This document shows, piece by piece, positions 53,265 to 57,016 of a DNA stretch of 64,000 bases. Under the pieces are notes generated by a model. That model ran no database searches. It was not told the origin of the DNA and saw only the letters and a list, made by a program, of their open reading frames with translations. The number at the start of each line of letters is the position of its first letter. Position 1 is the stretch's first letter. This DNA comes from Candidatus Altimarinota bacterium. GTDB lineage: Bacteria > Patescibacteriota > Gracilibacteria > BD1-5 > UBA6164. The stretch is taken from positions 1 to 64,000 of the forward strand of contig JAQTXG010000003.1 of assembly GCA_028688895.1 (NCBI GenBank), in the 5' to 3' direction. The translations under genes and the position numbers were made by a program.

Positions 53265-56200
53265 TTATTTTTTAAGTTTTATAATAATATTTAGTCATTC
53301 GATATCAATATTTTTTTCTAAATCAAACTCTTTTATATCATTTACTATACTAGATAATGTTTCAGTTTCTATATATTTTTGAAATATATTTAATACATTT
53401 CCAGCTCATAAAATAGATACTTGTATTCTATCATCTACTTGGTAATCTGCTTCTTTTCTAGATTCTTGAATTTGTCTAACAATATCTCTTGCTAATCATT
53501 CTAATCTTAGTTCTTCAGTAATATCACCAGATATAGCTACAACAGTTCAGTTACCACTTTCAATAAATTCATTTGTATGATAAATTTCTTTTATATTTGT
53601 TTCAAATACTAATTCAAAATCTCATTCTTCAAGAATAAAATCTCAAACTTTTAAATTTCAGTCAGGTTGAATTTCAAAATTACCTGACTTTGCTTCTGTA
53701 AGAATAAATTTTACATTTGCTCCAAATTTTGGTCAAATTGTTCTACCATTTGGTTTACACACTTTTAATGGCATTTCATCTGTTTCAAATACTTTGATTT
53801 CTTTTATATTTAATTCTTCTTTAATTATTTCTTTATAATATTCATTAAAATTTTCTAAAACTTTAATGTATTGTAATGGTTGTCTAACTCTTATTTTTGC
53901 ATTTGCTCTTGCCGATAATCAAAGTGTAATTATTTTTTGAACTTTATCTGTATCTGAATTTAATTTTTCATCAATAAGGTTAGAATCATAAGTAGGAAAA
54001 TTAGTTAAATGGACAGATTTTTCTCATGTTAATTCTTTGTAAATATGTTCAGAAATAAAAGGCATAAATGGAGCAATAATCTTTGTTAATTCAACAAGTG
54101 TATAATATAGAGTTTCATAAGCTTCTAATTTATCTGTGTCATTTTCAGATTTCCAAAATCTTTTTCTAGATCTTCTGATATACCAATTAGTTAGATTATC
54201 CATGAATTTTACTATTGGTTTTGCTGCTTCATTTAATTTGTAAGAATCAAATCAATAAGTTACTTCTTTTGTTAATTCATTTAATTCTGATATTAACCAT
54301 TTATCTAGATTGTTATTTCTAGTTTTTGATCAAGTTGGTTTGAAATTATCTATATTTGCATATGTAGTGAAAAAATAATATGTATTCCATAGTGGTAATA
54401 GTACTTTTTTGACAATTTCTTCTACTCATATTTCAGCAAATCTAAAATCTTGTGCTTCTACTACAGGACTATTCATTAGATAAAATCTCATGGCATCAGC
54501 TCAGTATTTTTCAAAAATCAGATGTGGATCGGGGTAGTTTTGTTTGCTTTTTGACATTTTTTGTCAGTCTTCAGCTAATACTATACCATTAACTATTACA
54601 TTTAAAAATGGTGTATTATCAAATAGCGCTGTTCAAAGAATAAGTAGTGTATAAAACCATCATCTAGTTTGATCAATACCTTCTGCGATGAAATCAGCTG
54701 GAAATTTAAAATTATCTGAATTTTCAAAAGGGAAGTGTTTACTTGCATAAGGCATAGCTCATGATTCAAACCAACAGTCTAATACTTCAGGTATTCTAGT
54801 TAATTTAGAACCTGTTTTTGGATGAGTTAAATATATTTCATCTACAAAATGTTTATGAATATCTACCTCCTCTCATGTATTTGTATAATAATATTTATCG
54901 TTTTCTTCTTTTATTTGTCAAAACTCTTTATTTAGTTCATACATTTCCTTTACTGAACCTATACATACTTCATCTTTTTTATCTTCAGATTGCCAAACAG
55001 GTATAGCAGATCACCAGTATCTATTTCTAGATATATTCCAATCGCGAGCATTTTCAACCCATTTCCCAAATCTACCATTTTTGATAATATCTGGTATCCA
55101 ATTTATTTTTTGATTGTTAATAACCATTTTTTCTCTGATTTTTTCTACTGCTACATACCAAGCTGATATTCATCTATAAATCAGTGGAGTATCACACCTC
55201 CAACAATGTGGATATGAGTGATCAATGGTAGATATTTTCATTACATCTCATCTATCTTTTAGTATTTGTATTACTTCTTCATTGTAATCAAATACATATT
55301 TTCAATTATCAGACAAAGTATTTGTAGTTTTTCAGCTATCATCTATGTGAGATACAAAACCTAAATCATGTTCTTTTCAGATAATGAAATCGTCTTCTCA
55401 ATACGCAGGAGCAATATGTACAATTCAAGTACCAGATTCAGTAGTTACATGATGACCTATTACTACATGATATACATTTTTTCATAAATATACATCTGTT
55501 CATAAATCAACTCACATATCTGTAATTTGAGTTTTGAAATCATTAAATATTGGTTCGTATTTAATTCATTGTAGACAAGCTCATTTATATTGTCTAACTT
55601 GTCTATAATCGTCTTCGTTTTTGTAATAATCTTTTAATCTATCACTAGCTAATACATATGTTTCTCAAGATTTATTATCAATTATTTCCGAGTACATAAT
55701 ATCAGCTCATACTGCTAATCATAGATTTGCCATAAGAGTCCATGGAGTAGTTGTCCAAGCTAATATGTATTTGTTTTCATTTCATACTACTTTGAATTTA
55801 ACTGTAAGTGTTTTATCTTGTTTGTCTTTGTATCATTGGTTCACTTCGAAGTTTGATAGTGGGGTAGTACATCTAGGACAGTATGGTACAACTCTGTGTC
55901 ATTCATATATCAATCATTTATCATATAGTGATTTGTATACCCACCAAACTGATTCCATGAAGTTTGTATCCATAGTTTTATATCAGTTTTTCATATCTAC
56001 CCATCTCCCCATTCTATTTACAGTTTTTTCCCATTCTTCTACATATCAAAATACATTTGATCTACAAGTTTCATTGAAAGTATGTATTCAGATTTTTTCT
56101 ATATCATCTCTACCTGAAATTTCTAGTTTTTTTTCAACTATATTTTCAATAGGTAATCAGTGACAATCCCAGCCAAATACTCTCTCAACTCTTTTACCTT

Positions 56201-56429
56201 TCATAGTTTGATATCTAGGTATCACATCTTTTAGTGTACCTGCTAATATATGTCCATAATGGGGTGTCCCAGTAGCAAACGGAGGACCGTCATAGAAATT
56301 GAACTCTTCTGCATCTTTTCTATTATTTACAGATGCTTCAAATATTTTATTTTCTTGCCAAAATTTTAGCATTTTTTCTTCCAGTTTAGGGAAAGATTGT
56401 TTTGGGTTTACTTTTTCGAAATTTTTCAT
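53265..56429 (-). CDS. ileS: Isoleucyl-tRNA synthetase, IleS2-like
   Basis: This 1054-residue class I synthetase has [16 protein letters not shown] (HIGH motif as HYGH), VFGWDCHGLP, the editing domain ([15 protein letters not shown]), [12 protein letters not shown] zinc knuckle, GWFYTLLIL and [10 protein letters not shown] (KMSKS). The GWDCHG form and the long C-terminal region mark the IleS2 group, often less sensitive to mupirocin. The start is set at the ATG of [11 protein letters not shown], as in relatives. An in-frame GTG 27 bp upstream is not needed. It is the middle gene of the T-box unit (76-aa gene, ileS, HAD), so isoleucyl-tRNA supply probably controls all three. Confidence 0.95.
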
Positions 56430-56442
56430 TTTTTTTATTTTA

Positions 56443-56673
56443 TTATTTAAACTCACTAATTAATCTCAATGCTTCTTCTTTGTATTCTAGCTCTCATAAC
56501 TCTGAATAAAGAGTTGCTTCTTGTAGTATATCATCTATTGCTTCCATATCATCTTCTGGAAGTTGATTTGTATATAGGTATTCTAGTATATAATTTATTG
56601 AATCCATATCATCAGCAATTATCGCAGTTTCTAGTTTTGATAAATAATCATTATATAATTTAGTTTTGTTCAT
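56443..56673 (-). CDS. Small acidic protein of unknown function (76 aa)
   Basis: This 76-residue protein is helical and acidic ([26 protein letters not shown]) with no Cys and no membrane segment. It is first in the ileS transcript, 19 bp after the T-box terminator and 13 bp before the ileS ATG. Its acidic helices resemble small accessory or partner proteins, but I recognise no family. The start is the first ATG after the terminator. Confidence 0.7.
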
Positions 56674-56691: not shown

Positions 56692-56750
56692 TAAAAAAAG
56701 TATAAAATAAATGATTTGATATTTTCAAATCTATATTTATTTTATACTTT
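56692..56750 (-). terminator. T-box terminator hairpin
   Basis: On the minus strand AAAGTATAAAATAAAT pairs with ATTTATTTTATACTTT, extended by GATTTG/CAAATC around a short loop, and is followed by seven T. It competes with the T-box antiterminator. Confidence 0.85.
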
Positions 56751-56900
56751 CGGTCCTTCGTAGCTTTAGCGAAGAAGGAAGTTACCACCTAAAGTTTTAC
56801 TTGATTTTATTTTTATGACGGAGATTTTCGACTTCGTGAGGTTCTACTAAGTAATTATACTTTTCTTCCTCCAGCTTGTGGTTGATAGCCACTCAAATGC
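56692..56900 (-). promoter_or_regulatory. T-box riboswitch, isoleucine-type, with very short specifier hairpin
   Basis: It is read on the minus strand, from 56900 down to 56692. A hairpin GTGG-CTATCAA-CCAC (56892-56878) carries ATC, an Ile codon, in its loop (56886-56884). About 85 bases later comes the T-box stretch AGGTGGTAAC (56789-56780), close to the consensus AGGGTGGNACC. Its TGGT would pair with ACCA of a tRNA with discriminator A, as tRNA-Ile has. ACTTTAGG and CCGAAAGT, and TCCTTC and GAAGGA, pair to give a two-helix antiterminator with an 8-base TGGT bulge (56795-56746). The CCGAAAGT arm overlaps the 5' arm of the terminator at 56750-56692, so the two are mutually exclusive. The regulated unit starts at 56673 and includes ileS. 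Confidence 0.8.
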
Positions 56901-57016
56901 TTTTTTTTATTTTATATAAAATATTTTATTTTACAAATTTTATTTTATTTATTTTTTACTTTTTTATTACTATATGTTATTATTATATAAATTATAATTT
57001 ATAAATATAAAAAAAT

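Follow-up and report, generated by a model that had tools for sequence, protein, structure and literature searches.

A T-box riboswitch with a minimal Stem I probably controls transcription of ileS in a Gracilibacteria genome

The ileS leader and its neighborhood

The leader upstream of ileS in the window (the whole 64,000-nucleotide stretch of DNA that we analyzed) is, on the comparative evidence set out below, very probably a T-box riboswitch whose Stem I is minimal and which governs the transcription of ileS together with a small ORF (orf76) that precedes it. The leader spans positions 56693–56901 of the minus strand. An earlier note on this DNA had proposed a T-box at 56692–56900; the location was right, and the element starts at about 56901, with a basal AGC/GCU helix lying below the specifier hairpin. 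The parts that the note listed (specifier hairpin, UGGN, two-helix antiterminator, 8-nt bulge, and terminator) were all found on the minus strand where it had placed them, and they recur, far beyond chance and with many compensatory changes, in an alignment of 130 leaders, which bears out the T-box identification. Its list left out Stem II with the S-turn, the Stem IIA hairpin, and the F-box-like CCGUCA.

The leader is followed, after a gap of 20 bases, by the first of two genes:

56443–56673, minus strand: 76-amino-acid ORF in the interval between leader and ileS, with no Pfam match
53265–56456, minus strand: ileS, encoding isoleucyl-tRNA synthetase, read in code 25 with 44 UGA codons as Gly

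The earlier assignment of ileS as the target held, with the amendment that in the window the 76-amino-acid ORF intervenes. Similar ORFs of 76–77 amino acids lie after the leader in several relatives. In five other ileS T-box operons (L062, L112, L129, L047, and L115) the first ORF resembles threonine dehydratase or RidA, sequence motifs being the sole basis for this assignment. A promoter search of the window locus found nothing above the AT-rich background (6 sites, versus 3.3 ± 2.0 in shuffles).

The ileS frame is open only if UGA is read as glycine, and most of the long genes in the window likewise need UGA to encode Gly. The named relatives of the source genome are Candidatus Gracilibacteria, including the complete chromosome CP042461.1; this code-25 genome therefore belongs, as the earlier note had supposed, to a different phylum from the actinobacterial T-boxes with which it was compared. 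In one relative, ARAGORN called a tRNA-SeC with anticodon UCA (L099:1498–1576, minus strand) whose 3′ end, GCUCCA, is the same as that of tRNA-Gly(UCC); given code 25, this tRNA is more likely a tRNA-Gly(UCA) that reads UGA.

Anatomy of the leader

From its 5′ end to its 3′ end, the window leader contains the following elements:

56899–56901, minus strand: 5′ strand (AGC) of the Stem I basal helix, pairing with GCU at 56873–56875; columns 4–117 and 5–103 covary in relatives
56893–56898, minus strand: kink-turn-like internal loop AUUUGA, with GA opposite AA, recognized from its position and from GA/(G,A)A conservation
56878–56892, minus strand: Stem I distal hairpin GUGG-CUAUCAA-CCAC; among relatives, each of the 4 pairs has changed at both positions, and 98.2% of cells are paired
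56884–56886, minus strand: specifier AUC (Ile), which ileS leaders share, whereas aspS leaders have AAC
56873–56875, minus strand: 3′ strand (GCU) of the Stem I basal helix, from the covariation screen
56838–56872, minus strand: Stem II with S-turn-like AAGAA / AGUAGAA; the flanking helices covary and are 96.8% and 93.5% paired
56816–56836, minus strand: Stem IIA hairpin CGAAG/CUCCG with F-box-like CCGUCA; helix 96.4% paired, and relatives show compensatory changes
56798–56805, minus strand: conserved AUCAAGUA, equivalent to the Stem III purine string, near-invariant in relatives
56746–56795, minus strand: antiterminator, with helices A1 (ACUUU/AAAGU plus GG/CC) and A2 (UCCUUC/GAAGGA), both of which covary; −10.4 kcal/mol
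56780–56787, minus strand: T-box bulge UGGUAACU, 8 nt, between the antiterminator helices; its N covaries with the specifier
56784–56787, minus strand: UGGU, complementary to the ACCA of tRNA-Ile, which ends ACCCACCA
56693–56750, minus strand: intrinsic terminator hairpin (56750–56697) and U-tract, with AAAGU in common with A1; −18.0 kcal/mol

The internal loop of Stem I would form a K-turn of the kind found at the base of Stem I in other T-boxes. The window copy of Stem IIA carries one A·C mismatch, and Stem III is absent from the window copy, which retains the purine string AAGUA; Stem III is present in two relatives (G056 and G072). In the T-box region, UGGU lies within AGGTGGTAAC (56787–56784), and the window bulge reads UGGUAAC rather than UGGUACC.

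Conservation and covariation in relatives

We located ileS in 79 relatives. Our first inspection covered 41 sequences, the window plus 40 loci upstream of ileS, of which 9 had a T-box motif near ileS. A covariance model built from an alignment of six full ileS leaders then matched 93 of 353 genomes from the class and, in a phylum-wide sample of 380 genomes, 74.

Across 100 aligned leaders, 94.2% of cells at paired positions held standard pairs, compared with 70.1% in shuffles, and 30 of the 33 pairs had changed on both sides; such changes numbered 826 versus 229 in shuffles, with a covariation score of 0.691 versus 0.225, although the alignment was fitted to the model and the pair counts are thus biased towards it. 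None of 500 shuffles reached any of the observed covariation values, and sliding the structure by one base dropped pairing to 51–57%. A structure-free mutual-information screen of the same alignment placed the identical helices at the top of its ranking and added the basal AGC/GCU helix, which is set off from the specifier hairpin by the GA/(G/A)A loop. The covariation that the earlier note had called for is therefore present in both the stem and the antiterminator. The same screen gave no covariation signal for the Stem IIB half of the pseudoknot, while the Stem IIA helix covaries. The anatomy of the leader, its conservation and covariation, and the matching of its specificity elements described below are all computational results on these sequences.

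Two other candidate helices were discarded. A closing helix, UUUGA/UCAAG, which came from minimum-free-energy folds and had been included in the model, paired no better than shuffled columns; its UUUGA is accounted for better by the GA internal loop of Stem I. A putative anti-antiterminator between a 5′ AAAGC and the antiterminator GCUUU paired at chance level.

The specifier agrees with both the downstream gene and the bulge

The strongest signal in the screen outside the paired positions linked the second base of the specifier to the N of UGGN (columns 29–380), with agreement in 94 of 94 rows: the combination was U-U in 55 rows and A-C in 39, and no other occurred. These combinations tracked the gene downstream. 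Of the leaders with AUC and UGGU, 53 are on the same contig and strand as ileS, and every one of these is upstream of it, at distances of 47–7304 bases. Leaders with AAC and UGGC precede aspS, and one exceptional aspS leader (L059) has AAC and UGGU. Leaders of glyS have GGN in a hairpin loop and UGGA. In the source genome, the discriminator bases are A73 in tRNA-Ile(GAU), G73 in tRNA-Asn(GUU), and U73 in tRNA-Gly(UCC), the exact complements of the U, C, and A in UGGU, UGGC, and UGGA. Two proposals of the earlier note thereby gained support, namely that the loop holds an Ile specifier, which is kept as AUC in the ileS-operon leaders of relatives, and that the TGGT matches discriminator A of tRNA-Ile.

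Because the specifier agrees with the gene and with the bulge, and because the helices covary, we see no explanation for this leader that lacks a tRNA ligand. Chance hairpins in an AT-rich leader, or an ordinary attenuator that does not sense tRNA, would be the simplest alternative; sequence of low G+C content folds readily, and the antiterminator-only fold of the window copy was no more stable than its shuffles (z −0.18). This alternative is nonetheless refuted for practical purposes by the covariation and by the codon–gene and codon–bulge agreement, and we consider its probability negligible. An equally slight probability attaches to attenuation through a leader peptide, in which ribosomes would stall at Ile codons. 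Such a mechanism would suit a leader that ends in a terminator upstream of the gene for an aminoacyl-tRNA synthetase, yet we saw neither a conserved leader ORF nor a run of Ile codons, and the single AUC is part of a hairpin loop that is conserved and covaries, and it is linked to base N of UGGN.

Leaders of aspS, glyS, and valS

Leaders with the Asn specifier AAC and UGGC were found before aspS at L058, L065, L102, L116, and about 40 other loci. A match to the AsnRS family above cut-off occurred in 1 of 79 relatives (a few others show weaker matches), and GatB scored above cut-off in 45 of 46. In these genomes Asn-tRNA is thus probably made by way of AspRS plus GatCAB, a route that would make uncharged tRNA-Asn a sensible signal for aspS. 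In one aspS leader (L153, G005:C1:6196–6348, minus strand) the specifier is apparently GAC (Asp), and the congener G024 retains AAC, which appears to represent a natural specifier switch.

The source genome also has a second T-box outside the window, before glyS (G000:C26:19085; locus L231, position 1500, plus strand), with a UGGAACC bulge, GGA in a hairpin loop, and a terminator. Canonical UGGAACC T-boxes with Gly-codon loops and terminators precede glyS in most of the relatives examined (L201–L230). In another class of Patescibacteria, a leader with GUC and UGGU lies directly before valS (L311, G637:C22:48273–48404, minus strand), and a further leader from another class has the GUC (Val) specifier with UGGU (L305, G634:C89:6885–7033, plus strand).

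A terminator that shares a strand with the antiterminator

A hairpin and U-tract that share the 3′ strand of A1, at −6 kcal/mol or better, followed 120 of 129 leaders; in mononucleotide shuffles that retained the T-tract, about 45 scored. In the window, the terminator (−18.0 kcal/mol) is predicted to be more stable than the antiterminator (−10.4 kcal/mol), and the predicted fold is the antiterminator when the terminator arm is left out and the terminator when the arm is included. The prevalence of the A1-sharing terminator and this swap of folds make transcription control the natural reading, in line with the terminator output put forward in the earlier note.

By analogy with known T-boxes, we infer that the leader binds tRNA, senses its charge, and switches accordingly. 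tRNA-Ile would pair through its GAU anticodon with the AUC of the Stem I loop, in a duplex that the Stem II S-turn would brace. If the tRNA-Ile is uncharged, its 3′ ACCA would pair with the UGGU of the antiterminator bulge, holding AAAGU in A1 and blocking the terminator, such that ileS would be transcribed. If it is charged, the antiterminator would not be stabilized, AAAGU would move into the stronger terminator hairpin, and transcription would stop.

The nearest known kin of this leader by Stem I and Stem II are the translational ileS T-boxes (PMC7583486), which raises the possibility that regulation here is chiefly translational, as in Actinobacteria, and that the downstream hairpin is incidental. 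About nine leaders of the class lacked a good terminator in our scan, so some of them may differ in their output. On the other hand, the excess of A1-sharing hairpins with U-tracts over shuffled sequences argues against this idea, as does the window itself, in which the hairpin ends before the ORF start at 56673 and no sequestered ribosome-binding site is evident. We regard a chiefly translational output as improbable for the window leader and favor transcriptional control, while allowing that the few leaders of the class that lack a terminator may work otherwise.

Comparison with known T-boxes

Most known T-boxes are found in Firmicutes, and the short-stem ones, which are mostly actinobacterial, are translational (PMC7583486, PMC2494555); the translational group is likewise described as mostly actinobacterial (PMC7583486). 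An older survey found T-boxes in Firmicutes, Actinobacteria, Chloroflexi, Deinococcus, and two Proteobacteria (PMC2494555), and TBDB applied its class II model to Actinobacteria and to those class I hits whose Stem I was truncated (PMC7778990).

The Rfam check suggested in the earlier note, run on the window, the source genome, and the leader loci, returned nothing informative at gathering level. RF00230, which has a gathering cut-off of 93 bits, had no match in the source genome at E≤0.001, and at E≤1 it matched neither the window leader nor any of the ileS and aspS leaders tried. With 48.8 bits, an ileS leader from Actinobacteria likewise fell under the cut-off, and the model of Gracilibacteria leaders matched several actinobacterial ileS leaders that came from the same IleRS search (E 0.0006–0.006).

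The kinship with actinobacterial ultrashort-Stem I T-boxes, first suggested in the earlier note, extends to the Stem I loop, S-turn, F-box, and T-box. Like the window leader, the ileS T-boxes of Nocardia farcinica, Mycobacterium tuberculosis, and M. smegmatis have a short Stem I whose terminal loop presents AUC, and actinobacterial ileS T-boxes share the GA-containing internal loop and basal helix of Stem I (PMC7583486). Also shared with actinobacterial ileS leaders are the CUAUCAC loop, GAGC, the GGAAGAA...AGUAGAACC S-turn of Stem II, the CCGUCA F-box of Stem IIA, the purine string AAG, the UGGUACC bulge, and GGUGGUACC. The two groups differ in their output, which is a terminator here and a sequestrator of the ribosome-binding site there; in the bulge, which here is mostly 8 nt (UGGUACCU); in Stem III, which here is often missing; and in the start of A2, which here is usually U-A and not G·U. 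Moreover, in Patescibacteria the architecture also serves aspS (Asn) and valS.

With canonical transcriptional T-boxes (RF00230; Bacillus glyQS, tyrS, and ileS), the leader has in common the specifier, the UGGN bulge, and the competition of A1/A2 with a terminator, but it lacks the long Stem I and the apical module that binds the tRNA elbow. Deinococcus radiodurans (ileS, glyS) and Chloroflexi likewise have a few non-Firmicutes T-boxes on genes for Ile- or Gly-tRNA ligases, a likeness of targets (PMC2494555).

The bulge has 8 nt, versus the usual 7 nt, both in the window and in the majority of leaders of ileS and aspS, and ACCG forms are a minority. Among 97 leaders, the A2 end pair was UA in 64, CG in 18, GC in 10, and GU in 2; the window has U-A. 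In the published account, a G·U wobble that ends A2 is the chief steric means of sensing the 3′-aminoacyl group (PMC7583486). Bulge length and this end pair are fine details of the canonical discriminator and do not define T-boxes at large. The points that count against a T-box reading of the window copy are its 8-nt bulge and U-A end pair, the absent Stem III, the A·C mismatch in Stem IIA, the UGGUAAC sequence, the miss by RF00230, and the lack of a promoter above background; in each defining sequence feature that could be checked, the leader conforms to a T-box.

Implications

In the open-access literature, to which our search was confined, we found no T-box paper for Gracilibacteria, Patescibacteria, or the Candidate Phyla Radiation, and Saccharibacteria returned only unrelated work. 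What is new here, as far as sequence can tell, is an actinobacterial-type ultrashort Stem I and Stem II joined to a predicted terminator in a phylum not known for T-boxes. A broader proposal, for which we judge the case evenly balanced, is that Patescibacteria have a phylum-wide subclass of terminating T-boxes with an ultrashort Stem I and an altered discriminator (the 8-nt bulge without the G·U sensor pair) for Ile, Val, and Asn, in addition to a separate compact glyS form, and that their charge-reading geometry is unlike that of solved T-boxes. If such a subclass exists, stem length and output mode would not be linked.

The predicted Asn switch before aspS, in genomes that have GatB and mostly lack a clear AsnRS, provides sequence evidence for charging of tRNA-Asn by AspRS/GatCAB. 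The finding also explains why standard annotation overlooks T-boxes in Patescibacteria. The T-boxes of this phylum, including those in genomes in which UGA encodes Gly, suggest that control of transcription needs no more than a minimal Stem I, and they would extend direct tRNA sensing to reduced, uncultured genomes.
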